From: Nannobrachium achirus
Taxonomy: Eukaryota; Chordata; Actinopteri; Myctophiformes; Myctophidae
Direction of reading: 5' to 3'
Assembly (NCBI GenBank): GCA_963921795.1
Contig: OY997647.1
Location: 67,244,468-67,308,467 of the forward strand
DNA: 64,000 bases
Under the pieces are notes generated by a model, which was not told the DNA's origin, did not search any database, and saw only the letters and a program-made list of their open reading frames with translations. Made by a program: the position numbers and the translations under genes. This document shows positions 1,100-63,980 of this stretch, one piece after another (the stretch's first letter is position 1; the number at the start of each line of letters is the position of its first letter).

Positions 1100-1400
1100 G
1101 GGTGTCTAAGTTTATGGTTAGCACCACAGCAGTGAACAGGTTCATCTCCTGCTCAGTGAGGGTTAGGTTTAGGGTTTAGGTTTAGGTTTAGGTTCAGTAC
1201 AGACCTGCAGACACCAGGAACACAGCAGTAAATAGGTTCATCTCCTGCTCACTGAGGGTTAGGGTTAGGGTTAGGTTTAGGTTAAGGGTTTAGGTTAAGG
1301 GTTCAGTACCTGCAGACACCAACACCACAGCAGTAAACAGGTTAATCTCCTGCTCACTGAGGTTTAGGTTTAGGGTTAGGTTTAGGTTTAGGTTTAGGTT
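1100..1400 (-). repeat. Copies of an nr1d2 exon end mixed with telomere-like repeat
   Basis: Three imperfect copies of the 3' border of the adjacent exon (1407-1617) lie at about 1117-1160, 1199-1258 and 1306-1362. Each reads on the minus strand like the exon end ([12 protein letters not shown]), and the latter two run on into a GT that keeps the donor context. They are separated by degenerate TTAGGG/TTTAGG runs. Order and strand match the exon, so these look like tandem duplications across the exon-intron border and not a separate gene. Confidence 0.75.
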
Positions 1401-1406
1401 CTATAC

Positions 1407-1617
1407 CTGCAGACACCAGGACTACAGCAGTAAACAGGTTCATCTCCTCCTCATTAAGCTCCAGACTCCTCAGCTTGAGGTTGAAGTCCATCATGTTGGT
1501 CATCAGCTCTCCTGCTCCCAGGGCCCTCAGAGCCTCCAGGTGGAACCTCTGACCTCCCAGGAAGGTCACGCTGCGCTGCGGAGCGTCAAACAGCCTGGAG
1601 AAACGCAGCACCAACAC
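1407..1617 (-). CDS. nr1d2: nr1d2 exon 9, ligand-binding domain
   Basis: The 211-bp exon encodes [20 protein letters not shown], then [20 protein letters not shown] and [20 protein letters not shown] and [10 protein letters not shown]. This is the core of the REV-ERB ligand domain. It ends with one carried base before GTATAG, consistent with SADRSG in relatives. The following exon is not in the window. Confidence 0.93.
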
Positions 1618-4600
1618 CTGCAGGTCAGAGGTCACAGAGCACGGCGGCAGCGAAGCCGCGGTCAGTCTGAGAGGAGCAGGAAGAGTTTAACGCATCAGGA
1701 GCAGCCATGACTCCATCATCACCTGCTGCATCTTTACATCATGAACTGAACGGATGACAGGAGGGGGTGAGAGAGGGGGGGGGGGGGGGGGGGGGGGGGA
1801 GAAGAGCTGCAGGGTGAAGGGATGGAGGGAATACCAGTAGAGATGGACCGATTGCAAAATGATTGGCCGATACCGATCCACCGGTTGTATGAAGGTCTGA
1901 CCTGCCAAAACAGATTTTTCCGATACCGATTTCTTTAGCTAAGAACTAGAAAATAGGGTTGCACCAATACCCTTTTTTTCAGGCCAAGTAGGCCTACAAT
2001 ACATACTTCAATGTGAGTACCAATAAGCAAGAAGAACACTAATGCCAAATCAATCAAAATAGTACAATATCCAAAATCACAGACAATATCCAGTCTAATA
2101 TGACCGTCTGGACTAGGCAGGAGGAAAGCAGGTGACACATGCTTTTTTACCCTTCTTGTTGGAGACGACATTGACACAGGATTATGGAATATATCCTTAC
2201 ATTGCAAAGGTAATCAGCACCATCTGTATTCTGTAGGCTGCCACTAAGTAGACTGGCTGCTACTACAGGACCAGAGCATCATGCTTGGTGGGGTGGTGGG
2301 GTGAAGGGATGAGAGAGGGGTGAGAAGAGATGGTGGGGGTGAAAGGATGGAGGAATACCAGAAGACTCCCTGGAGAACACAGTGGCCTCGTCTCTCCCAG
2401 TGGTTCTCAAACCTTTTGGCTGGTTAAATCTAACCTTATTCCAAACTTAAACCCTCAGTGAAACGGTGCCAAAGCCTAACCCTATTCCTAATCTTAACCT
2501 CAGTAAAACAAATATACCAGAATACTAGAACCGTTCCACCAGGCAGTCAACGTGAGGTCAACGTGAGGTCAACGTGAGGTCGGTGGGAAAATAAATATCA
2601 GCGAGAAGGTTTTCTGGCATAGATAGATAGATACCTTTATTATCCCAAGGGGGAAATTCAGTAGGCATGTGGACCGGTTAGTTTACCGATGGAGGGGGTT
2701 CAGGTTGAGAGGATGACCTCTACGTACCTCGAAGGTCCCAGCCTTCAGCAGGCAGACCTGGTCTACGTACCGATGGAGGGGGGTTCAGGTCACGTACCTC
2801 GAAGGTCCCAGCCTTCAGAAGGCAGACCTGGTCGTGCTGTGACAGATCTCTGAACCCTGGGATCTTCTTAGCGAACTCCACCACCTCCCTCACAGCGGGG
2901 GTGAAGCTACGACTGAACTCCTCCCACACCTCCTGACCAGAGAGATGCGGGTCCACGTGGGGGGAGATGTTCATAGGACACACCTGGGGAGGACACAGTG
3001 ATGATATTAATACTCTATGATCATCTATCATCCTCCACACCTCCTGACCAGAGAGATGCGGGTCCACGTGGGGGGAGACGTTCATGGGACACACCTGAGG
3101 AGGACACAGTGATCAGTGTTAGAGAGGCAGGGGCTGACATTTCTAAAAGGTGAAAATATTAAAAATAGCAGACCTCCAAGCTCACAATGCTTTGAGCTGC
3201 AACAGTTTACAGTTTACAGTTAGGCATTTAGCAGACGCTTTTAATCCAAAGCGACTTACAATAAGCAGATAAAACATCAAGTGCCATACCGGGCAACCGC
3301 TTTTGGAAAAAAAAACATCCTTTCAGTTCAGGGCTCTAATAATAAGAGACTGTTTGTCATTTCCATCCTTAAGGTACAATCTAAAAAAATGGTTACTTGA
3401 CAATCAAACGTGTGACCATTTATAGTCTATACATAGTATATTACATGTATGTATATTTTTAATGATCCTTTTTCTAATATAGGGTTCTGGTGCCAGCATT
3501 TTGTTTACAGGTGGAATAGTATAGTACTTGTATGTATAGTATAGTATGTATATGTATGTAGTATGTATGTATAGAATAGTATAGTACTTGTATATATAGT
3601 ATAGTATGTATATGTATGTATAGTATGTATGTATAGAATAGTATAGTACTTGTATGTATAGTATAGTATGTATATGTATGTATAGTATGTATGTATAGAA
3701 TAGTATAGTACTTGTATGTATAGTATAGTATGTATATGTATGTATAGTATGTATGTATAGAATAGTATAGTACTTGTATGTGTTCTAAATGCCTTCTCCT
3801 GATGTAAGGTTATTGTTGTTGGTATGTGTTGTTTTGTCTTCATGTGAGGACTACAGATGAAATGTTGCATTCTTGCTAAATCCGGTGTATTTACATTGCA
3901 TTTATGTAGTGTTCATTAATGTGCATTGTCCCGTCTAAATAACAAATAAAGTAAAGTATCAATATAATAAGCAAGATAATGTGTCAGTACATCAACAACA
4001 ATATAACACAAGCATAGGAATATCAATCTAGAAAAACAATAACATAGGTAGACCATGCACCTAATCAGTAAAAAACTTCTAAAACCTAAAAAATGCTATC
4101 TGACTTCATGTAAGGTCATTGAGGGAAGGGGGAGTAACAGGGGCAGTGCGACGCGTTGTGAGCTTGGAGGTCTGCTATTTTCGATACTTGATACCACACT
4201 GAACAAAGCATAATCAAGTGAATACTGGAGATGTGGCGTAACGGCATGGATTTCTACACAGAGAGGACAATTCTTTCAACATAAGACACTGCAGGAGAGG
4301 TGCTGCGAGGAGAAGTTTAGAAGCGGCGAGGAGAGCGGGCGCGGTCCCGTAAAATTCCTGCGAGCGTGCTCGTTTGTGCATGCGTACGTGGGCGGCAAGA
4401 GATGGATTGTGTTCATCTTTGTGAAATGCTGCGCAGCGTTTACTCACTGAGCGAGTGTGTTTGTGTCTCACTGAGTGAGTGTGTTTGTGTCTCACTGAGA
4501 GAGTGTGTTTGTGTCTCACTGAGAGAGTGTGTTTGTGTCTCACTGAGAGAGTGTGTTTGTGTCTCACTGAGAGAGTGTGTTTGTGTCTCACTGAGAGAGT

Positions 4601-8800: not shown

Positions 8801-10929
8801 ATGATGTCATCACTGGAGGTGATGATGTCATCGCTGGAGGTGGAGCTCCCCAAGGGGCCACTGTCCTTTATGGTGGGGGGTCCTTGGATGGGGGGTCCTT
8901 GGATGGGGGGTCCTTGGGAGAGGGGTCCCTGGGTGGGGGGTCCCTGGACGGGGGGTCCGTGGATAGGGGGTCCCTGGGTGAGGGGTCCCTGGACGGGGGG
9001 TCCCTGGATGGGGGGTCCCTGGACGGGGGGTCCCTGCGTGAGGGGTCCCTGGACAGCCTGCTGCTCCTGGTTGTACATGAAGGTCCCCTGGTGGTGGAGA
9101 AGTGTCATTGATTGATTGAAGTATTGATTGTCAGTTTGCATAGGATAAGGTACAGTTTCATGACAGTACAGTTCACTGGTACAAGGTCTACTAAAAAGCC
9201 TCTGTCTTATTTGTGAGCTCGCATGAAGGTGAGAACACTATGTTATCTTCATTATTGCCAGACCCATGAAATGGGTAGGCCTACATAAGCAAATGTCGGT
9301 CTGTCCGGGTTTTCTATATAAAGGGTATATATGATGATGACATGATGATGACATGCCTACAAAAGGCATGATGTCATAAATGATGATGACAGACAGGGGG
9401 TCTGGCACAACCAGGTTGACCTGGTCTATTTATTTTAGATATTGTTGTGTTCTCGCCTGAAAGGTGAGAACACTGTTATCCTCATTATTGCCAGACCCAT
9501 GAAATGGGTAGGCCTACATAAGCAAATGTCTGTCCGGGTTTTCTATATAAAGGGTATATATGATGATGACATGATGATGACATGCCTACAAAAGGCATGA
9601 TGTCATAAATAATGATGACAGACAGGGGGTCTGGCACAACCAGGTTGACCTGGTCTAGTTTATATATAGTGAGTTCCGTCGCAGACAGTATAAAGGCAGG
9701 GCCCTTAGTCAATGAGGTGCAATTGAGGTGTGTAAATCTGGGAGTGGTGTTAGCTGGGGTATTGGTTGAGCTTCACATGACAGCACACTGCAGGATATAG
9801 TCACCAACGAGCCCACACTGTCTCGTAGGAACAGTATTTCTAGTTAAAATGTACCTTTTCAAACATTTTCTCTTTTCACCCCCAAACAAATAGAGAAAAT
9901 AACTGATCTACAAGCTCTCAGTGTGTTGCTCGGCAAAGCGCTGATAGCTTGTAGATCCACTACTTTCACTATTTTTATAAATTGGTGTTTAAGTGGATCC
10001 CATACCTGGTGGGCTCTGGTTACCGTGGTAACCTCCTCCTCCCCGCTGTCCGAGGCGCTGGAGGAGGCGGAGCTAGAGCTGGTATCCATGGCGACCGAGG
10101 GCTCCGGGTCCGAGCTGGAGTCCGATTGGCTGGAGGGCGAGGGGGCGGGGCCCAGGGGCGTCTGGTTGCCGTGGAGACCGTTGTTCATCATGTTGTTCAT
10201 GGCGCTCTGCATCTCCAGCAGGAGGCGCTGTTTCTCACGTTTAGGAATACGACCAAACCTCACAGCTGGAACACATATAATATATAACATATAATAACAT
10301 ATACTATATACCTGTATTATATTACCTTCACTAAAACACCTGAATACGACCAAACCTTACAGCTGGAACAAAATCATTGTTATAATTATTTAACTAACTA
10401 TTAGCAATACAATAATAATGCTTCAATAATATACAATAATAAAGCTTAAGGGATGTGGCCTAAACATGAATCCATGACTGACTGACTGACTGACTGACTG
10501 ACTGATTAACTGACTGACTGACTGACTGACTGACTGACTGACTGGCTGGCTGGCTGACTGGCTGACTGACTGACTGACTGATTAACTGACTGACTGACTG
10601 ACTGACTGACTGACTGGCTGGCTGGCTGACTGGCTGGCTGGCTGGCTGGCTGACTGGCTGACTGACTGACTGACTGACTGATTAACTGACTGATTAACTG
10701 ACTGACTGACTGACTGACTGACTGACTGGCTGGCTGGCTGACTGGCTGACTGACTGACTGACTGATTAACTGACTGACTGACTGACTGACTGACTGACTG
10801 ACTGGCTGGCTGGCTGACTGGCTGGCTGGCTGGCTGACTGGCTGACTGACTGACTGACTGATTAACTGACTGACTGACTGACTGACTGACTGACTGACTG
10901 ACTGACTGACTGACTGATTAACTGACTGA

Positions 10930-10994
<65 letters not shown>

Positions 10995-13900
10995 TGACTG
11001 ACTGACTGACTGACTGGCTGGCTGAGCCATAGTACAGTATGTGTCATAATCACTATGATGTCATTCTGATCCCAATAAAACATATTCTGTCACACTGTCA
11101 GACAGACACTCATCACCACCAGAAGACACTTCTTAAAGGGTTAGGGGTTATAATAGGGGTATAGTATAAGGGTATAGGGTTGTAATAGGGTAGTGTAGGG
11201 TATTATCTTACAGTCTCTGGACATTCCCACCAGAAGACACTTCTTAAAGGGGTAGTGTAGTGTATTATAGGGTTGTAGTAGGGTAGTATAGGGTAGTGTA
11301 GGGTATTATCTTACAGTCTCTGGACATTCCCACCAGAAGACACTTCTTAACTCTCCTACTGCCAGATCATTTATTTATTTATTGGGTCTGGCGCCATCAA
11401 AAAGCGGCTTACCTTTGCGACGTTATAGTAGATAGACAGACAGACATTTATTTATTTTTTTTTATTTTTTTTGGTTGTGCAATAGTGCACTTTGGTCTGC
11501 CAGGCAGCAGAGGGCGGCGTCATGCGAGAATGAATGTGAATTTGCCTGTTATGTGTTGAAGAAGAAGAAGACCAGTCACTGGCCCCAGAGCCTTACAGCC
11601 AGAGGAAATCAACAAGGAAGTGAATTGTTCTCCGTTGATCTAACGCATAATGGATTTTTTACACCATCACCGCGGAAAATGTGTTTACAGTAGACGGCCG
11701 CGCGACCCCTCATCAGCTTACAGTCATCAGACGAACGAACCGAACGAGCGCCGTATTGGCGGTAAGGTCTTGCGCAATCGGGCGAACGTGAACGTTCAAA
11801 GCGTGGGAAGAGTTAAAGGGGTAGTGTAGTGTATTATAGGGTTGTAGTAGGGTAGTATAGGGTAGTATAGGGTAGGGTAGGGTATTAACTTACAGTCTCT
11901 ACTCATCCCCACCAGAAGACACTTCTTAAAGAGGTAGGGGTTATAATAGGGTTATAGTATAAGGGTATAGGGTTGTAGTAGGGTAGGGTAGGGTATTAAC
12001 TTACAGTCTCTACTCATCCCCACCAGAAGACACTTCTTAAAGGGTTAGGGGTTATAATAGGGGTATAGTATAAGGGTATAGGGTTGTAGTAGGGTAGGGT
12101 ATAGGGTATTAACTTACAGTCTCTACTCATCCCCACCAGAAGACACTTCTTAAAGGGGTAGTGTAGTATATTATAGTATAGTTTAGGGTATTATAGGGTA
12201 TTATAGGGTAGTATAGGGTAGGGTATAGGGTATTAACTTACAGTCTCTACTCATCCCCACCAGAAGACACTTCTTAAAGGGTTAGGGGTTATAATAGGGG
12301 TATAGTATAAGGGTATAGGGTTGTAGTAGGGTAGGGTAGTGTAGTGTAGTAGGGTATAGGGGTACAGTAGGGGTACAGTATAGGGTATTAACTTACAGTC
12401 TCTACTCATCCCCACCAGAAGACACTTCTTAAAGGGGTAGGGTAGTGTATTATAGTATAGTATAGGGTTAGTATAGGGTATTATAGGGTAGTGTAGGGTA
12501 GTATAGTGTATTAACTTACAGTCTCTACTCATCCCCACCAGAAGACACTTCTTAAAGCGACACTGCTGGCAGCGGTTCCTGTTCATCCTCATGATGGGAC
12601 AGCTGTCGTTCTTCTGGCACCGTTTATACTGGATGTTCTGCTGGATGGACCTTCTGAAGAACCCCTGTTAGAGTACCCAACACAATGAGGACATTACTGG
12701 ATGTTCTGCTGGATGGAACGTCTGAAGAACCCCTGGAGAACCCAATACAACCACATTACTGAATGTTCTGCTGGATGGACCTTCTGAAGAACCCCTGGAG
12801 AACCCAATACAACCACATTACTGAATGTTCTGCTGGATGGACCTTCTGAAGAACCCCTGTAGAGAACCCAACACAATGAGGACATTACTGGATGTTCTGC
12901 TGGATGGACCTTCTGAAGAACCCCTGTAGAGAACCCAACACAATGAGGACATTACTGAATGTTCTGCTGGATGGACCTTCTGAAGAACCCCTGTTAGAGG
13001 ACCCAACATAATGAGAACATTAACACCGTTTATACTGGATGTTCTGCTGGATGGACCTTCTGAAGAACCCCTGTAGAGAACCCAACATAATGAGGACATT
13101 ACCGGATGTTCTGCTGGATGGACCTTCTGAAGAACCCCTGTTAGAGAACCCAACACAATGAGAACATTAACACCGTTTATACTGAATGTTCTGCTGGATG
13201 GAACGTCTGAAGAAACCCTGTAGAGAACCCAACATAATGAGAACATTACTGGATGTTCTGCTGGATGGACCTTCTGAAGAACCCCTGTTAGAGAACCCAA
13301 CACAATGAGGACATTACTGGATGTTCTGCTGGATGGACCTTCTGAAGAAACCCTGTTAGAGAACCCAACACAATGAGGACATTACTGGATGTTCTGCTGG
13401 ATGGACCTTCTGAAGAACCCCTGTTAGAGAACCCAACACAATGAGGACATTACTGGATGTTCTGCTGGATGGACCTTCTGAAGAACCCCTGTAGAGAACC
13501 CAACATAATGAGAACATTACTGGATGTTCTGCTGGATGGACCTTCTGAAGAACCCCTGTAGAGAACCAACACAATGAGAACATTAACACCGTTTATACTG
13601 GATGTTCTGCTGGATGGACCTTCTGAAGAACCCCTGTAGAACCAATACAATGAGAACATTAACACTGTTTGTACTGAATGTTCTGCTGGATGGACCTTCT
13701 GAAGAAACCCTGGAGAGAACCCAACATAATGAGGACATTACTGGATGTTCTGCTGGATGGAGCGCCTGAAGAACCCCTGTAGAGAACCCAACACAATGAG
13801 GACATTACTGGATGTTCTGCTGGATGGAGCGCCTGAAGAACCCCTGTTAGAGAACCCAACACAATGAGGACATTACTGGATGTTCTGCTGGATGGAGCGC

Positions 13901-16900
13901 CTGAAGAACCCCTGTTAGAGAACCCAACACAATGAGGACATTACTGGATGTTCTGTTGGATGGACCTTCTGAAGAACCCCTAGAACCAATACAATGAGAA
14001 CATTAACATCTTGTACTGAATGTTCTGCTGGATGGACCTTCTGAAGAAACCCTAGAACCAACACAATGAGAACATTAACACTGTTTGTACTGGATGTTCT
14101 GTTGGATGGAACGTCTGAAGAACCCCTGGAGAACACAACCAGAACCACCACATTACTGAAGAACCCCTGTAGAACCAACCAGAACCCAACACAATGAGAA
14201 CATTAACACCGTTTGTACTGAATGTTCTGCTGGATGGAGCGCCTGAAGAACCCCTGTAGAACCAATACAATGAGAACATTAACACCGTTTATACTGGATG
14301 TTCTGCTGGATGGAGCGCCTGAAGAACCCCTGTAGAGAACCAATACAATGAGAACATTAACACCGTTTATACTGGATGTTCTGCTGGATGGAGCGCCTGA
14401 AGAACCCCTGGAGAGAACCAATACAATGAGAACATTAACACCGTTTGTACTGGATGTTCTGCTGGATGGAGCGCCTGAAGAACCCCTGTAGAGAACCAAT
14501 ACAATGAGAACATTAACACCGTTTATACTGGATGTTCTGCTGGATGGAGCGTCTGAAGAACCCCTGGAGAGAACCAATACAATACAACCACATTACTGAA
14601 TGTTCTGTTGGATGGAACGTCTGAAGAACCCCTGTAGACAACCAATACAATGAGAACATTAACACCGTTTGTACTGGATGTTCTGCTGGATGGAGCGTCT
14701 GAAGAACCCCTAGAACCAATAGAACCACCACATTACTGAAGAAACCCTGTAGAACCAATACAACCACATTACTGAATGTTCTGTTGGATGGAACGCCTGA
14801 AGAACAACGGACTCACTCGCTAGCTTTTGCCGTGGACTTAAGACTCACCTTTTCAGACTCCACCTAAACCCTTAGCACTACTGAAACACTCAATGACCAT
14901 ACATGAAGCTAGTTAGCATTTGTTTTTAGGTTTTTAGAATCCTTTTTTCTTTACTGTTTTTTAGATTGATTTCATATGCATTTGTTATATTGTTGTTGAT
15001 GTTCTGACATGTTATCTTGTTTATTATTGTGATGTTTTATCTACCTATTGTAAATCGCTTTGGATTAAAAGCATCTGCTAGATGCCTAAACTGTAAAGTG
15101 TAAGAACCCCTTTAGAACCCAACAGAACCACAACATTAATGGCCTGCTGGAGAACCAACACTTGTACCAAGCAGGTTGACCAACACTGCTTGTACTGAAT
15201 GTTCTGTTTAACCTGCTGGATGAACCCCTGTAGAGAACCAATACAACCAGCAGAACATTAACATCTTGTACTGAATGTTCTGCTGGATGAACCCCTGTAG
15301 AGAACCAATACAACCAGCAGAACATTAACATCTTGTACTGAATGTTCTGCTGGATGAACCCCTGTAGAGAACCAATACAACCAGCAGAACATTAACATCT
15401 TGTACTGAATGTTCTGCTGGATGAACCCCTGTAGAGAACCAATACAACCAGCAGAACATTAACATCTTGTACTGAATGTTCTGCTGGATGAACCCCTGTA
15501 GAGAACCAATACAACCAGCAGAACATTAACATCTTGTACTGAATGTTCTGCTGGATGAACCCCTGTAGAGAACCAATACAACCAGCAGAACAGGGGAGGT
15601 GAGTATTATGGCCAAGGTCACTGCTCTAACACACAGCCCTGAGGAACACCGTACCTTGCAGCCCTCACAGGCATGGACTCCGTAGTGAAACCCTGAAGCA
15701 ACGTCTCCACACACCTTACACTGCAACACCAAGCCACTGAGCTCTGAGGAGAGGAGAGGAGAAGATACATGAGATCTCTATGAGGGGAGGAGAGGAGAGG
15801 AGAAGATACATGAGATCTCTATGAGGGGAGGAGAGGGGAGGAGAAGATACATGACATCTCTATGAGGGGAGGAGAGGAGAAGATACATGACATCTCTATG
15901 AGGGGAGGAGAGGAGAGGAGAAGATACATGACATCTCTATGAGGGGAGGAGAGGAGAGGAGACACCTTACACAGCAACACCAAGCCACTGATCTCTGAGG
16001 AGAGGAGAGGAGAAGATACATGAGATCTCTATGAGGGGAGGAGAGGAGAGGAGAAGATACATGAGATCTCTATGAGGGGAGGAGAGGAGAGGAGACACCT
16101 TACACAGCAACACCAAGCCACTGATCTCTGAGGAGAGGAGAGGAGAAGATACATGAGATCTATATGAGGGGAGGAGAGGGGAGGAGAGGAGAGCCATGTC
16201 TCCACACACCTTACACAGCAGCATAGTTTACTGTTAGCAGTTTGGAGAGGCTGCCGTCTGTAAGTGGTTTTCAGAGCGGTTTTAAAAGAAGTTCCTTTAA
16301 GGCCTTCAGTAAGGCCTTCCACATGTTAGTGCTATAGCAGGAGAGAACATTTGACCCTTAGTTTGAGCTGAATCTGGGTTGAACATGATCTGTAGAGCTG
16401 CCTCTGGTGGAAAACCAGGTAGCAGATGTGTTTTTTTTCTTTCTATCACAGTGTCACCTACTTTAATTGTGAAGTTCTCAACTAGGCTAAGTTTCTAGGT
16501 GGATTGAGAGTCTGTTGCTGTCTGCCAGGTGCAGATCATGTTTAGTTCACAGTTAAGGGCCTTTTCAACCTGCAATACCTGAGACTAGGAGAGACGGGTT
16601 TTCAAACACTTTTGACTCTGGTCACCTTTTCAGACTCCACCTAAACCCATAGCACTACTGAAACACTCAATGGCCATACATGAAGCTAGTTAGCATTTGT
16701 TTTTAGGTTTTTAGAATCCTTTTTCTTTACTGATTATATTGGGGTTTTTTTTTAGATTGATATTCATATGCATTTGTTATATTGTTGCTGATGTTCTGAC
16801 ATATTATCTTGTTTATTATAGTGATGTATTATCTGCTTATTGTAAGTCACTTTGGATTAAAAGCGTCTGCTAAATGCCTAAACTGTAAACTGAGGCACCC

Positions 16901-18845
16901 TGGACTGGCCTCACAGCACCCTAGGGTGCCACAGCACCCACTTTGAGAAACCCTGATTAATGGTAAAGTAATGGTAATGTAGGGTGCGTTCGGAAATGCG
17001 CACTCAACGCACTGGTGTGCCATGTTGTCGTTTGTTTATCCGGTGCACTTGGTGCGTTGTCGTTCAGAAATCCAGTGCGCAGCGCACCGGTGTGCTGAGT
17101 GCACGCACTGACCTAGGGTGGGGTCTACTCAGTGGATGGGGTTTGGCAGTGTGGTGCGTCGGTGTGGTGTTTTGATTGGTTGGTTTTCATGGCCGTGTCT
17201 CGAGCGCTTCTCAGCTGTGAACAATGGAGGAAATGACCGCGAAATGCAGCATTTGCAGCTTCATTGGTAGTTTGGGCTTGATAGTTTCACACACATCAAC
17301 ATGTAAACTAACAGCAGGAAGGCCAATGTTATGAATTACATCTCCTTTCAACATCAACGTTACGTTAGCAACTGCTGCTTTTCAGAAAGTTTACCTTCAG
17401 AGTTCAGAGTGAAAAAGCTCACAGCTGCATCTTATCTGGTCGTTGGTAAATAAGCCACACTGAATGCACTCTACAACGTCACGCCAACTGCACTCACTCG
17501 AACGCACCCGTAATCTAATCTAATATTAATATGAATGTTCTCACTCGTGATGCCTCCGGTCTTGGAGCCAGATGAGGAGGAGCGTCCTTTATTCTGGGGG
17601 TTGGTGTCTGGCGCCCCCCTGTGGCTGATGAAGGCGTTGCTCTGGGGTTTGGTGTCTGGCGCCTCCCTGTGGCTGAGGAAGGCGTTGCTCTGGGGTTTGG
17701 TGTCTGGCGCCTCCCTGTGGCTGAGGAAGGCGTTGTTCTTCTGGGGGTTGGTGTCTGGCTCCCCCCTGTGGCTGAGGAAGGCATTGCTCTGGGGGTTGGT
17801 GTCTGGCGCCTCCGTGTGGCTGTGGAAGGAGTTGTTCTTCTGGGGGTTGGTGTCTGGCGCCCCTCTGTGGCTGTGGAAGGCGTTGCGCGGAGGTGAGGAG
17901 CCCTGGTAGCTGCCATTGGACGAGTCGCTGTGACACGACTCTGGGCTGGAGCTGATGTAGGCTATCACCCCCCCTGGTGGTGGAAAACACAGTGAGAAAT
18001 GAGAAGTCTTAAGATTTGTAATTTAAAGGTATCTTCAGTGATTGTATTTCATTCATATTAATTAAAATATAATTGGTACATTTTCCATTCATTCTCCTCA
18101 CTAGAATGTGTGCTGACCATATAAGGACTTGTGTTACAAGCATAGCTAGATTTGGTTTTCAGAGGTGGCCAGCCAGTCCTCGACCAATCAGGGTAGAGTA
18201 TGGCTGTAGTTATGTTATGATGTTTAGTTATGATGGTCAAAATAAAAGTTTTGAGAACCACAGTCGCTCTGATTTAAGAACGTTATGATGTTTAGTTATG
18301 ATGGTCAAAATAAAAGTTTTGAGAACCACAGTCGCTCTGAATTAAGAACGTCTGCTAAATGCCTAGATTATAAACTACTGAAGGACTACAATTTGCCGGA
18401 AAGATCAAACCGGATTCAGTTTTAACCCAAAATATTCCCCTGCGCTCAAGGACATACTTTTAGGGCCTACCTAATAAACCCCTTGATGCGGAGTAGTTTT
18501 GCTTTTGAAAAATGTGTTTGGTATTTGCATCTTTTAGTCCAACTGGTAGCGACTGGCAAGACTACACTAGGCTACTGGAGCATTTTAATAGGGATTGGGG
18601 AAACAAACGAGGGGAACCAAATCAAAGCGACGCCGCTTCTTCTAGTGGTTTCCGCGCTTTAGGCGGAAACCAAACGGCCTGTTGTGAACGAACACCAGGC
18701 TTTCCCCCAGAAAGCCTGGTGGGTGAGGATATGGACCAGTGCACTGTAGGGCAGAACAGAGCAGCTGACCTGGATTCATCCTAACTGCTCTCTAGTTAGA
18801 TAACATCATTACATAATACTACACACACTGAGACACACACACACA

Positions 18846-49023: not shown

Positions 49024-51897
49024 GAGTGTGTGTTCAGTAACAGTGTTAAACAGCTCTATATTGTGACAGTAATCATTGCTATAGAGTGTTCAGTAACAGT
49101 GTTAAATAGCGCAACACATTCTCATGTGACAGTAATCATTGCTATAGAGTGTTCAGTAACAGTGTTAAATAGCTCTATATTGTGACAGTAATCATTGCTA
49201 TAGAGTGTTCAGTAACAGTGTTAAATAGCTCTATATTGTGACAGTAATCATTGCTATAGAGTGTTCAGTAACAGTGTTAAATAGCTCTATATTGTGACAG
49301 TAATCATTGCTATAGAGGGTTTGTTCAGTAACAGTGTTAAATAGCTCTATATTGTGACAGTAAGCATTGCTATAGAGTGTTCAGTAACAGTGTTAAATAG
49401 CTCTATATTGTGACAGTAATCATTGCTATAGAGTGTTCAGTAACAGTGTTAAATAGCTCTATATTGTGACAGTAATCATTGCTATAGAGTGTGTGTTCAG
49501 TAACAGTGTTAAATAGCTCTATATTGTGACAGTAATCATTGCTATAGAGTGTTCAGTAACAGTGTTAAATAGCTCTATATTGTGACAGTAAGCATTGCTA
49601 TAGAGTGTTCAGTAACAGTGTTAAATAGCTCTATATTGTGACAGTAATCATTGCTATAGAGTGTTCAGTAACAGTGTTAAATAGCTCTATATTGTGACAG
49701 TAATCATTGCTATAGAGTGTGTGTTCAGTAACAGTGTTAAATAGCTCTATATTGTGACAGTAATCATTGCTATAGAGTGTTTGTTCAGTAACAGTGTTAA
49801 ATAGATCTATATTGTGACAGTAATCATTGCTATAGAGTGTGTGTTCAGTAACAGTGTTAAATAGCTCTATATTGTGACAGTAATCATTGCTATAGAGTGT
49901 TCAGTAACAGTGTTAAACAGCTCTATATTGTGACAGTAATCATTGCTATAGAGTGTTCAGTAACAGTGTTAAATAGCTCTATATTGTGACAGTAATCATT
50001 GCTATAGAGTGTTTGTTCAGTAACAGTGTTAAATAGCTCTATATTGTGACAGTAATCATTGCTATAGAGTGTTCAGTAACAGTGTTAAATAGCGCAACAC
50101 ATTCTCATGTGACAGTAATCATTGCTATAGAGTGTTCAGTAACAGTGTTAAATAGCTCTATATTGTGACAGTAATCATTGCTATAGAGTGTTCAGTAACA
50201 GTGTTAAATAGCTCTATATTGTGACAGTAATCATTGCTATAGAGTGTTCAGTAACAGTGTTAAATAGCTCTATATTGTGACAGTAATCATTGCTATAGAG
50301 GGTTTGTTCAGTAACAGTGTTAAATAGCTCTATATTGTGACAGTAAGCATTGCTATAGAGTGTTCAGTAACAGTGTTAAATAGCTCTATATTGTGACAGT
50401 AATCATTGCTATAGAGTGTTCAGTAACAGTGTTAAATAGCTCTATATTGTGACAGTAATCATTGCTATAGAGTGTGTGTTCAGTAACAGTGTTAAATAGC
50501 TCTATATTGTGACAGTAATCATTGCTATAGAGTGTTCAGTAACAGTGTTAAATAGCTCTATATTGTGACAGTAAGCATTGCTATAGAGTGTTCAGTAACA
50601 GTGTTAAATAGCTCTATATTGTGACAGTAATCATTGCTATAGAGTGTTCAGTAACAGTGTTAAATAGCTCTATATTGTGACAGTAATCATTGCTATAGAG
50701 TGTGTGTTCAGTAACAGTGTTAAATAGCTCTATATTGTGACAGTAATCATTGCTATAGAGTGTTTGTTCAGTAACAGTGTTAAATAGATCTATATTGTGA
50801 CAGTAATCATTGCTATAGAGTGTGTGTTCAGTAACAGTGTTAAATAGCTCTATATTGTGACAGTAATCATTGCTATAGAGTGTTCAGTAACAGTGTTAAA
50901 CAGCTCTATATTGTGACAGTAATCATTGCTATAGAGTGTTCAGTAACAGTGTTAAATAGCTCTATATTGTGACAGTAATCATTGCTATAGAGTGTGTGTT
51001 CAGTAACAGTGTTAAATAGCTCTATATTGTGACAGTAATCATTGCTATAGAGTGTTTGTTCAGTAACAGTGTTAAATAGCTCTATATTGTGACAGTAATC
51101 ATTGCTATAGAGTGTTCAGTAACAGTGTTAAATAGCTCTATATTGTGACAGTAATCATTGCTATAGAGTGTTCAGTAACAGTGTTAAATAGCTCTATATT
51201 GTGACAGTAATCATTGCTATAGAGTGTTCAGTAACAGTGTTAAATAGCTCTATATTGTGACAGTAATCATTGCTATAGAGGGTTTATTCAGTAACAGTGT
51301 TAAACAGCTCTATATTGTGACTGTAATCATTGCTATAGAGTGTTCAGTAACAGTGTTAAACAGCTCTATATTGTGACAGTAATCATTGCTATAGAGTGTT
51401 CAGTAACAGTGTTAAATAGCTCTATATTGTGACAGTAATCATTGCTATAGTGTGTTTGTTCAGTAACAGTGTTACATAGCTCTATATTGTGACAGTAATC
51501 ATTGCTATAGCGTGTTCAGTAACAGTGTTAAATAGCTCTATATTGTGACAGTAATCATTGCTATAGAGTGTTCAGTAACAGTGTTAAACAGCTCTATATC
51601 GTGACAGTAATCATTGCTATAGAGTGTTCAGTAACAGTGTTAAACAGCTCTATATTGTGACAGTAATCATTGCTATAGAGTGTTCAGTAACAGTGTTAAA
51701 TAGCTCTATATTGTGACAGTAATCATTGCTATAGAGTGTTCAGTAACAGTGTTAAATAGCTCTATATTGTGACAGTAATCATTGCTATAGAGTGTTCAGT
51801 AACAGTGTTAAACAGCTCTATATTGTGACAGTAATCATTGCTATAGAGTGTTCAGTAACAGTGTTAAATAGCTCTATATTGTGACAGTAATCATTGC
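49024..51897 (+). repeat. 56-bp satellite with 984-bp higher-order period
   Basis: About 50 units of 56-60 bp contain CAGTGTTAAATAGCTCTATA and GACAGTAATCATTGCTATAG. Rare variants recur exactly 983-984 bp apart: GCGCAACACATTCTCATG at 49108 and 50091, AATAGATC at 49798 and 50782, GTAAGCATTGC at 49361/49588 and 50345/50572, and GAGGGTTT at 49313, 50297 and 51281. One block of about 17 units was therefore duplicated as a whole, with a third partial copy. Confidence 0.95.
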
Positions 51898-52289
51898 TCC
51901 AAACGTTCTTTCTGTGGACTCAAACACAAACACCACCAAAACCACAGTGTTTCTCAAAACCACCTTTTATTCTCCAGAGCCAATTCACATTAAGTGCAAA
52001 CATCATCAGTTATCATTTAAGCATCAAAATAATTATCTCTTTATAAGTGCAACTTTTCTGGGCTTATATATTTTCTCCAGGCAGGGTCCATCATGGTCCA
52101 AACTGAGTGAGAGATCATGGTTTTCTGGGCTACGCTTCTCTTTTCTTTGACACCTCAGCCTAAAGTGCAAGACAGCAACGTTTGGACCAAAACCTCATCA
52201 TTATTACTATTATTATAATTATCATTTCAAACCACAGATTCATTCGTCGTCTCCATTCACACAAGGTCCATGTCCTCACATTACGCCAG

Positions 52290-61165: not shown

Positions 61166-61180
61166 GACACTCCACTGTGA

Positions 61181-61388
61181 TTGGTCAGTCTTCGAACACC
61201 TCCAGGAAAAGGGGCGGGAACAGCTCTCTGATTGGCTAGTCTTCAAACACCTCCAGGAAAAGGGGCGGGAACAGCTCTCTGATTGGCTAGTCTTCGAACA
61301 CCTCCAGGAAAAGGGGCGGGAACAGCTCTCTGATTGGCTAGTCTTCGAACACCTCCAGGAAAAGGGGCGGGAACAACTCTCTGATTGG
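61181..61388 (-). repeat. 51-bp satellite made of the end of the last thrb exon
   Basis: Four tandem units repeat the final codons and stop ([13 protein letters not shown] on the minus strand) with the following CCAATCAGAGAGCTGTTCCC sequence. The unit differs from the exon mainly at GAGTTG (CAGCTC/CAACTC). Copies begin immediately after the true stop. Confidence 0.93.
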
Positions 61389-61630
61389 CTAGTCTTCGAA
61401 CACCTCCAGGAAAAGGGGCGGGAACAACTCGTTGGGACATTCCAGCTTCATGTGCAGGAAGCGGGAGGCGTGGCAGGCGCCAATCATCCTCAGGTCGGTG
61501 ACCTTCATCAGCAGCTTGGGCCAGAAATGAGACACGCTGTGTTTACGATGGTTGATGTAATGTTCAAACGCCAAGAGGAACTGTTCCTGGTACGCCTCTA
61601 TACGATCCACACTCTGAAGGCCTGGGCGAT
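61389..61630 (-). CDS. thrb: thrb last coding exon
   Basis: Encodes [60 protein letters not shown] and [19 protein letters not shown] with TAG. This is the only copy in which the start and end parts are joined by the middle (HFWPKLLMK...). Both ends are amplified next to it. Confidence 0.95.
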
Positions 61631-61656
61631 CTGAGGGGAGAGAGACACTATGAATG

Positions 61657-61698
<42 letters not shown>

Positions 61699-61819
61699 GC
61701 TGTGTTTACGATGGTTGATGTAATGTTCAAACGCTAAGAGGAACTGTTCCTGGTAGGCTTCTATACGATCCACACTCTGAAGGCCTGGGCGATCTGAGGG
61801 GAGAGAGACACTATGAATG

Positions 61820-61863
<44 letters not shown>

Positions 61864-61984
61864 GCTGTGTTTACGATGGTTGATGTAATGTTCAAACGCT
61901 AAGAGGAACTGTTCCTGATAGGCTTCTATACGATCCACACTCTGAAGGCCTGGGCGATCTGAGGGGAGAGAGACACTATGAATG

Positions 61985-62040
<56 letters not shown>

Positions 62041-62161
62041 GCTGTGTTTACGATGGTTGATGTAATGTTCAAACGCCAAGAGGAACTGTTCCTGGTACGC
62101 CTCTATACGATCCACACTGACCAGGCCTGGGCGATCTGAGGGGAGAGAGACACTATGAATG

Positions 62162-62225
<64 letters not shown>

Positions 62226-62346
62226 GCTGTGTTTACGATGGTTGATGTAATGTTCAAACGCTAAGAGGAACTGTTCCTGATAGGCTTCTATACGATCCAC
62301 ACTGCTGAGGCCTGGGCGATCTGAGGGGAGAGAGACACTATGAATG

Positions 62347-62407
<61 letters not shown>

Positions 62408-62483
62408 CTGTTCCTGATACGCTTCTATACGATCCACACTCTGAAGGCCTGGGCGATCTGAGGGGAGAGAGACACTATGAATG

Positions 62484-62540
<57 letters not shown>

Positions 62541-63980
62541 CTGTTCCTGATACGCCTCTATACAATCCACACTGCTGAGACCTGGGCGATCTGACAGAGG
62601 GAGAGATGGGACAGGAACTTTATTGACAGTACAGTAAGTAGACAGCAAACAGGGAAAGAGATGCAGCAACGGTGGTTGGGACTTGAACCTGCAACACGCT
62701 GTCAGGCATCAGATAGTTTTAGCTTTAGGGTTAGTCTTTATCTTAGTCTTACATAGTTAATAGTTATAATTAATAGTTTATAGTTTATAGTTCATAGGGT
62801 TAGGGTTAGTCTTTATCTAACCCTAATAGTTAATAGTTATAATTAATAGTTTATAGTTTATAGTTCATAGGGTTAGGGTTAGTCTTTATCTAACCCTAAT
62901 AGTTAATAGTTATAATTAATAGTTTATAGTTTATAGTTCATAGGGTTAGGGTTAGTCTTTATCTAACCCTAATAGTTAATAGTTATAATTAATAGTTTAT
63001 AGTTTATAGTTCATAGGGTTAGGGTTAGTCTTTATCTAACCCTAATAGTTAATAGTTATAATTAATAGTTTATAGTTTATAGTTCATAGGGTTAGGGTTA
63101 GTCTTTATCTAACCCTAATAGTTAATAGTTATAATTAATAGTTTATAGTTTATAGTTCATAGGGTTAGGGTTAGTCTTTATCTAACCCTAATAGTTAATA
63201 GTTATAATTAATAGTTTATAGTTTATAGTTCATAGGGTTAGGGTTAGTCTTTATCTAACCCTAATAGTTAATAGTTATAATTAATAGTTTATAGTTTATA
63301 GTTCATAGGGTTAGGGTTAGTCTTTATCTAACCCTAATAGTTAATAGTTATAATTAATAGTTTATAGTTTATAGTTCATAGGGTTAGGGTTAGTCTTTAT
63401 CTAACCCTAATAGTTAATAGTTATAATTAATAGTTTATAGTTTATAGTTCATAGCGTTAGGGTTAGTCTTTATCCAACCCTAATAGTTAATAGTTATAAT
63501 TAATAGTTTATAGTTTATAGTTCATAGGGTTAGGGTTAGTCTTTATCTAACCCTAATAGTTAATAGTTATAATTAATAGTTTATAGTTTATAGTTCATAG
63601 TGTGTTAACAGTCTTACCAGAAGACAGTAGGATGACAGACTGCATCAGTGTTTAGTTAACACTTAACAGTTAACAGTTTATAGTTTATAATTAATATTTA
63701 ATAGTTAGTTACCAGTCTTACCAGAGGACAACAGGATGACAGACTGCAGCAGGGCCACCTCAGAGTCGTCCAGGTTAAACGAGGACAGCGATACTCCCAG
63801 GTCAAAGATGGCGTCGGAGACCACGCCCAGGCCGCCGTTCTTCAGCTGGCCGCGCGTCACCGCCATCTCTCCGTTCAGCGTCAGAGTCTCGCTGTCCGGG
63901 TCGTAGCGCACGGCGGCACGCAGAGACATGATCTCCATGCAGCAGCCTTTCAGCAGGATGATCTGGTCCTCACAGGGTAG
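61389..63980 (-). CDS. thrb: thrb, thyroid hormone receptor beta (last two coding exons)
   Basis: This is a ligand-dependent transcription factor for T3 that binds TREs as an RXR heterodimer. Exons 63722-63980 (259 bp, the same length as the matching human exon) and 61389-61630 (79 codons plus stop) join in phase (LLSSDRPGL). Together they give the C-terminal ligand domain, from [20 protein letters not shown] to PLFLEVFED. The C-terminus includes the AF-2 helix 12. Residues such as [19 protein letters not shown] and SLSSFNLDD match TR-beta better than TR-alpha (SGEMAVKREQ, SLSAFNLDD). Upstream exons lie beyond 64000. nr1d2 lies 37 kb downstream on the same strand. Confidence 0.94.
61640..62600 (-). 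repeat. Satellite made of the start of the last thrb exon
   Basis: Four full units (ending near 61797, 61965, 62141 and 62323) and two shortened ones (62404-62466, 62536-62597) repeat the acceptor and first 35 codons of the last exon ([18 protein letters not shown], then [16 protein letters not shown]). Between units are GA runs and GAGGGGAGAGAGACACTATG. The unit stops at HKHSVS, where the exon passes to HFWPK; the GA run (CTCTCT on the minus strand) begins there. Each full unit keeps a usable CCCCTCAG acceptor. Confidence 0.95.
62740..63600 (+). repeat. 72-bp minisatellite in thrb intron
   Basis: About twelve units of TAGTTAATAGTTATAATTAA with TTTATAGTTCATAGGGTTAG, nearly identical. Each has a TTAGGGTTAG telomere-like core. 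Confidence 0.95.
63604..63652 (-). repeat. Copy of the penultimate thrb exon end
   Basis: On the minus strand this reads [10 protein letters not shown] followed by GGTAAGAC, repeating the exon end ([10 protein letters not shown]) and donor with three or four changes. It lies between the exon and the 72-bp array. Confidence 0.85.
63722..63980 (-). CDS. thrb: thrb penultimate coding exon
   Basis: Encodes [20 protein letters not shown], then [40 protein letters not shown] and [26 protein letters not shown]. The acceptor is CTCCAG and the donor GTAAGA. The last 30 bp with the donor are duplicated downstream at 63606-63650. Confidence 0.95.

Follow-up and report, generated by a model that had tools for sequence, protein, structure and literature searches.

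In amphioxus, minisatellites termed 'mirages' have been described in Adh3 and in the globin genes BflGb6 and BflGb9. As set out in sections of the source paper (PMC3087553), their repeats straddle the borders between exons and introns, on the 5' as well as the 3' side of exons, splice signals are retained in many units, units measure from tens of base pairs (bp) up to about 160 bp, homogenisation does not reach the outer ones, and reverse-transcription polymerase chain reaction gave evidence of normal splicing; a model presented there links such exon-border minisatellites to intron gain. Intron gain by tandem genomic duplication of an exon segment containing AGGT is likewise treated in part of a review (PMC3443670). 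Here we analyzed a 64,000-nucleotide stretch of DNA, referred to as the window, from the myctophid fish Nannobrachium achirus (contig OY997647.1, positions 67,244,468 to 67,308,467), in which the nr1d2 gene carries, at its second zinc-finger exon, a large array of units made up of exon and intron sequence. This array is probably an exon-border minisatellite of the mirage kind, produced by blind tandem duplication near a chromosome end. Two further systems are of relevance: intron gain by tandem duplication was reportedly tested in vivo by Hellsten et al. in 2011, and coding minisatellites are in-frame tandem repeats located in disordered regions of proteins.

Decoy splice sites and codon variation at an nr1d2 exon

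As the original prediction had proposed, the gene carrying the array is nr1d2: human NR1D2 is the best match of its ligand-domain exons (PDB 3cqv, E 2e-57), and NR1D1 that of its two zinc fingers among solved structures (1a6y, E 4e-48). It is encoded on the minus strand and flanked by rpl15 and thrb, and the window is located 0.36-0.43 Mb from the end of a chromosome-size contig (C10, 67,670,899 bases). Upstream, in transcript sense, of the sole complete copy of the second zinc-finger exon, we found 36 decoy acceptors (AG/GG, slashes marking splice borders here and below) in addition to the real one. The full 36-nucleotide (nt) exon start is carried by 28 of the 36, and by 29 units if the exon itself is counted. 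The repeat proposed earlier is therefore real, but its count of about 29 units upstream of the exon in fact includes the exon, while the six further shortened units that had been noticed were all recovered. Two stubs, at 14166 and 14746, are among the 36 decoys, whereas the full-length unit at 14807 is not, its acceptor having been destroyed. Interspersed repeat sequence within the array region is limited to one element (cf. Table 1).

It had also been suggested that the intron offers about 30 near-identical 3' splice sites, only one of which leads to a full exon. Decoy acceptors next to one complete exon were confirmed, though this description was incomplete in scope, since the donor edge, other exons, and other genes are affected too. 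The second zinc-finger exon has CTTTAAGAAGTGTCTTCTGGTGGGGATGAGTAGAGACT/GTAAGT as its donor edge, which recurs seven times downstream; five copies are identical to the exon end plus GTAAGT, and the two outer ones show two synonymous codon changes and GTAAGA, with Ser AGT replaced by Ser TCC. The first decoy donor lies 123 nt (41 codons) past the real one, and the frame is open throughout (12397-12664), so its use would add 41 residues with no stop. A genome-wide satellite, the possibility against which the original prediction was to be checked, was rejected: when the unit's exonic core was searched as a degenerate pattern, the 1.66-Gb genome had 30 matches, 30/30 of them inside this array and none at unlinked places, and the reversed pattern, used as a control, gave 0 matches.

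The arrays resemble mirages in that (i) tandem units cross the exon-intron border and hold both exon and intron sequence (36 decoy acceptors and seven decoy donors), and (ii) either exon edge may be duplicated, as seen in nr1d2, thrb, and rpl15, where 15 of the 33 borders have copies. The described hosts of mirages, in the sections of PMC3087553 devoted to them, are cephalochordates, whereas the present host is a vertebrate, and its four NR1D paralogs together with the position of nr1d2 beside thrb and rpl15 suggest a teleost; as the mirage kind is defined by structure, we regard the vertebrate setting as a difference of host. Other differences are of scale, with 36 decoy acceptors at one nr1d2 exon as opposed to the three to six units given for amphioxus globin mirages in the same sections, and of character, for stop- and start-codon edges, concentration at chromosome ends, and coding-like variation among units are found here as well. 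Unlike the amphioxus arrays with their splicing evidence, those of nr1d2 are known from genomic DNA alone. Our search of open-licence papers recognised no case of a vertebrate exon-border minisatellite. The statement that no such case had been described thus holds for nuclear receptors within the papers searched, but not for the kind, which is that of amphioxus Adh3 and globin genes. To our knowledge, and within the literature searched, what is new is the vertebrate host, the scale, the chromosome-end setting, the coding-like variation, and the copying of start- and stop-codon edges. One vertebrate chromosome end displays border arrays at acceptors, donors, start, and stop, in clock, thyroid-hormone, and ribosomal-protein genes, and two questions thereby become testable in one genome, namely how introns originate by tandem duplication and how the spliceosome settles on one exon when dozens of acceptors are as strong or stronger.

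The units vary as coding sequence does. Among the 36 exonic bases of the 29 units, 6 of the 14 sites capable of synonymous change vary (pi 0.167), in comparison with 1 of the 22 zero-fold sites (pi 0.003, in one unit); the early observation that AG and codons are kept was correct. The intronic part of the units has a pi of 0.157, though this figure varies with the alignment. The Arg-Arg pair, for instance, is encoded as AGA AGG, AGG CGC, AGA CGC, or AGA CGT. In each of the 28 full decoys the reading frame ends at a stop 12-23 codons on, and since these untranslatable units vary almost only at synonymous codons, the array appears to descend from the coding exon and perhaps also exchanges sequence with it.

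To this we added the codon differences pooled from 15 arrays in the three genes. Of 54 distinct differences, 37 were synonymous and 17 other, while the expected synonymous share is 0.225 under neutrality (P 8e-13) and 0.368 if copies drift freely from an exon that evolves purely synonymously (P 2e-6, or P 1e-3 with a transition bias of 8). The exon of the donor array and its outermost copies fell outside the counted range, which leaves the distinct codon differences unaffected; neither the unit at 14807 nor the cut-short one at 11134, whose homology stops within the segment, was counted, and their inclusion gives 2 and 3 amino-acid differences for their two arrays. Copies as plain neutral fossils were accordingly rejected, amino-acid changes being too few. 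This scarcity relative to the fossil expectation suggests that the lineages of the array often passed through the coding position. One genome would be compatible either with one-way copying and rapid turnover or with copying back into the exon as well.

Exonic difference from the exon rises with distance among the 28 decoys (rho 0.57, P 0.0015). Both copies of the first zinc-finger edge, as well as all four NR1D paralogs, read LLCKV where the exon has LQCKV, and the copies of the exon 7 edge have Ser, as in human NR1D2, at a position where the exon itself has Asn. These matches to relatives indicate that the copies represent older states of the exons. The arrays also preserve past synonymous exon states and form a small fossil record.

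Copied borders, chromosome ends, and an apparent intron in thrb

Copies of exon edges are distributed over several exons of nr1d2 and thrb (cf. Table 1), and copies of donor and acceptor edges are present in rpl15, too. Under one criterion for acceptors and donors, namely a copy within 1 kb, the figure for the 33 borders of the three genes was 15. Random points reached 0.22-0.25 over 264 kb (P 0.002-0.010 for borders exceeding them) and 0.34-0.38 when placed within the bodies of the three genes (P 0.11-0.23 versus the borders). Preferential targeting of splice borders is hence unsupported: their rate, though above the 264-kb average, is near that of the same gene bodies, and because borders are copied about as often as adjoining intron DNA, no targeting of splice sites is apparent.

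The rest of the genome was sampled by 20 second-zinc-finger exons with 1-kb flanks, plus four exons picked for their position near chromosome ends; loci from a kinase search, which yielded many single-exon genes, did not enter the sample. Two of the 20 contain an exonic copy: L031, lying 1.33 Mb inside the C10 end, and L035, which is 6.3 Mb away from an end of another contig, C12. Of the four near-end picks, L060 lacks an array and the other three have one. In L059, a Rab-like first exon situated 0.11 Mb from the C10 end, the start-codon end is copied; L061 is described below; and L062, a RAR-like first zinc finger at 1.30 Mb from that same end, shows six further donor-edge copies. Altogether, copies occur in 4 of 5 sampled exons within 1.8 Mb of chromosome ends versus 1 of 19 farther in (Fisher P 0.002). 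Codon differences amount to 5 synonymous and 2 other in the L059 copies, both of the latter in the outermost copy, to 1 synonymous and 0 other in L061, and to none in L062 and L031, while the internal L035 copy has 0 synonymous and 3 other. The C10 end had a repeat density of 0.20, and nine other right ends, 0.4 Mb in, had 0.11, the tenth piece (L052) being without a usable value; densities were 0.042 for seven scattered loci and 0.023 for the 20 zinc-finger loci.

Three upstream copies of the start-codon end in L059 (485-1021; MDILWQYQYRIILLGD then stop) amount to decoy start codons. L061 (1147-1784) is a Rab-family exon 1.73 Mb from a C12 end, whose 14 further donor-edge copies follow a 44-bp period; only the two outermost are changed, synonymously.

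The four NR1D paralogs of the same genome (L041, L043, L044, and L046) have no repeated exonic 20-mer within 1 kb. An origin of the variant units from paralogs is unsupported, as no paralog arrays lie within that distance and the exon starts of the paralogs, compared over the first codons only, differ from the codons of the units.

In thrb, 75 kb from nr1d2 and outside the window, an apparent phase-0 intron of 1,843 nt (GATAAG/GTGATT ... ACCAAG/GTAACC; C10:67319619-67321461, L010:1152-2994) separates Lys from Val within the second zinc-finger exon. AGGT stands at both ends, and the joined halves give an unbroken zinc finger with the coding sequence unchanged. Inside the intron, the donor edge recurs three times (33 nt, up to 6 mismatches) and the acceptor edge about 21 times (15 nt, up to 2 mismatches). 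The other second-zinc-finger exons fetched from this genome, two of which (L036 and L038) look like other thyroid receptors, are uninterrupted at this site in 20 of 20 cases. We know of no such intron in other vertebrates. As seen in genomic DNA, the interruption has the appearance of a newly born intron. It resembles the AGGT duplication model, as outlined in part of PMC3443670, in that the exon is interrupted at AAG/GT, the coding sequence is intact, and duplicates of both exon halves lie inside; unlike a single AGGT duplication as outlined there, it has arrays at both ends (three donor-side and about 21 acceptor-side copies). Arrays at both ends would fit the prediction of the mirage (Ebner-type) models and of the AGGT duplication model, as far as these are presented in the sections of PMC3087553 and PMC3443670 concerned.

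Predicted splicing and explanations

Splice sites were scored with small weight matrices that ignore the branch point, built on 36 acceptors and 35 donors from the same genome. The real donor (9.2) and its seven copies scored 8.3-9.2, and only 1 of 297 GT sites in the array region exceeded the mean minus one standard deviation, namely 14849, inside the interspersed element. As the array has no other fair 5' splice site, exon definition would favour the acceptors beside the real donor, among them the real one and the decoys 12732 and 12794 (11.5). Joined to the real donor, these two decoys would give exons of 213 and 275 nt with a stop after 12 codons, and some decoy use, ending in a stop, is expected from this prediction.

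The probable explanation named at the outset, a mirage-type minisatellite, can be put as follows. Local tandem duplication is frequent near this chromosome end, as the repeat density shows, and would strike genes blindly. When a duplication engulfs an exon edge, copies would accumulate on the intron side, because one exon must remain intact, and selection would preserve that one. Decoy acceptors would be tolerated through exon definition, in which mainly acceptors near the real donor define the exon. Copies would mostly arise at the exon edge, the older ones lying farther out and retaining earlier synonymous states, and the substitution pattern suggests that the ancestry of the units led recently and often through the coding position, with copying outward and perhaps also back into the exon. 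Several observations weigh against this reading: (i) on the small weight matrix all 36 decoys (5.0-15.6) outrank the real acceptor, which at 3.9 is last of 37, and the strong donor-like site 14849 (13.1) is above the real donor, therefore decoys might well be used; (ii) the difference of the intronic part does not rise significantly with distance (rho 0.25, P 0.19); (iii) amino-acid changes occur in several arrays, with 3 each at the exon 7 donor, the acceptor of the last thrb exon, and thrb ZF2b, and 2 each at thrb ZF2a and the first zinc finger; and (iv) only 24 exons enter the comparison of chromosome ends with internal sites, and L031 and L062, both among the four positives, seem to belong to a single RAR-like gene, P being 0.009 without L062 and 0.04 without both.

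A broader proposal, which we put forward only tentatively and hold to be possible rather than likely, is that at chromosome ends exon edges work as members of the minisatellite. Flow out of and back into the exon would let exon constraint purge amino-acid changes from dozens of non-coding units, the exon start would be a cassette renewed from its own array, and an array at an internal AAGGT could give birth to an intron, as in the second zinc finger of thrb. The codon pattern has also to be set against the idea that the units are translated or otherwise selected as protein code, for example as alternative exons. The almost purely synonymous variation would speak for it, but the in-frame stops of all 28 full decoys and the lack of a fair donor of their own make it hardly credible.

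The scores in point (i) are what a regulatory array would call for, in which decoys compete with the real acceptor, proximal ones give poison exons, and copy number lowers or times nr1d2 output, the role suggested in the original prediction: all 36 decoys outscore the real site, 12732 and 12794 yield the stop-containing exons given above, and 14849 could close pseudo-exons formed from the shortened units. However, donors, one stop codon, and one start codon are copied likewise, as are borders of a ribosomal-protein gene, unrelated introns nearby are equally repetitive, the four NR1D paralogs do without an array within 1 kb, and a splice decoy would not need codon constraint; we therefore judge regulation by decoys unlikely. 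Less credit still is due to an artefact made by collapsed or expanded reads. Long tandem arrays are prone to assembly error, but the window contains no N, the units show 13 distinct exonic haplotypes, an interspersed element sits within the array, and many further exons plus another chromosome end show similar arrays, so we regard an artefact as very improbable.

Features of the window

Table 1 Features of the window, in order of position; slashes mark splice borders
Feature	Position	Strand	Details
nr1d2 exon 7 donor-edge copies	1120..1453	-	
nr1d2 exon 7	1407-1617	-	
nr1d2 exon 6 edge copies	2727..3110	-	one acceptor-edge (unit 3091), one donor-edge (unit 2763)
nr1d2 exon 6	2798-2983	-	
nr1d2 hinge exon	10006-10265	-	
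Hinge-exon acceptor edge, one copy	10330..10375	-	
Donor-side array of second zinc-finger exon	11130..12519	-	seven donor copies and one copy ending short of the donor
nr1d2 second zinc-finger exon, sole complete copy	12520..12664	-	acceptor AACAG/GGG, donor ACT/GTAAGT
Acceptor-side array	12665..14808	-	28 full decoy units (12732-14709), stubs 14166 and 14746, full unit 14807; periods about 62-80 bp
Interspersed repeat inserted between main array and shortened units	14801..15103		at least 39 further places, 90-93% identity
Six shortened acceptor units	15213..15592 (sites 15227-15562)	-	GF--IQQNIQ, 12 nt missing; 67-bp period
nr1d2 first zinc-finger exon	15655..15743	-	
Array with two copies of first zinc-finger exon acceptor edge	15744..16187	-	units at 15992 and 16125, LLCKV kept
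thrb stop-codon end, four copies	61178..61388	-	51-bp period; 0, 1, 2, 3 synonymous changes going outward
thrb last exon, coding part	61389-61630	-	
thrb last exon and six copies of its acceptor edge	61389..62600	-	copies of up to about 32 codons
Next-to-last thrb exon, donor edge, one diverged copy	63619..63655	-	outside the count over 33 borders

Two large intronic or intergenic tandem arrays, at 49030-51898 (a 56-bp unit in about 48 copies) and 62725-63600 (a 73-bp unit in 12 copies), were also seen, and exon sequence was not noticed in either. In nr1d2, the N-terminal exon (17593-17886) holds an in-frame coding minisatellite with 48/99-bp repeats, and exon 5 (8874-9053) holds in-frame 15-bp repeats of the GPPIQ type. 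Exons spared at their edges thus carry in-frame repeats where the protein tolerates them. These two exons are like coding minisatellites, from which the decoy array differs by lying outside the exon and being untranslatable.

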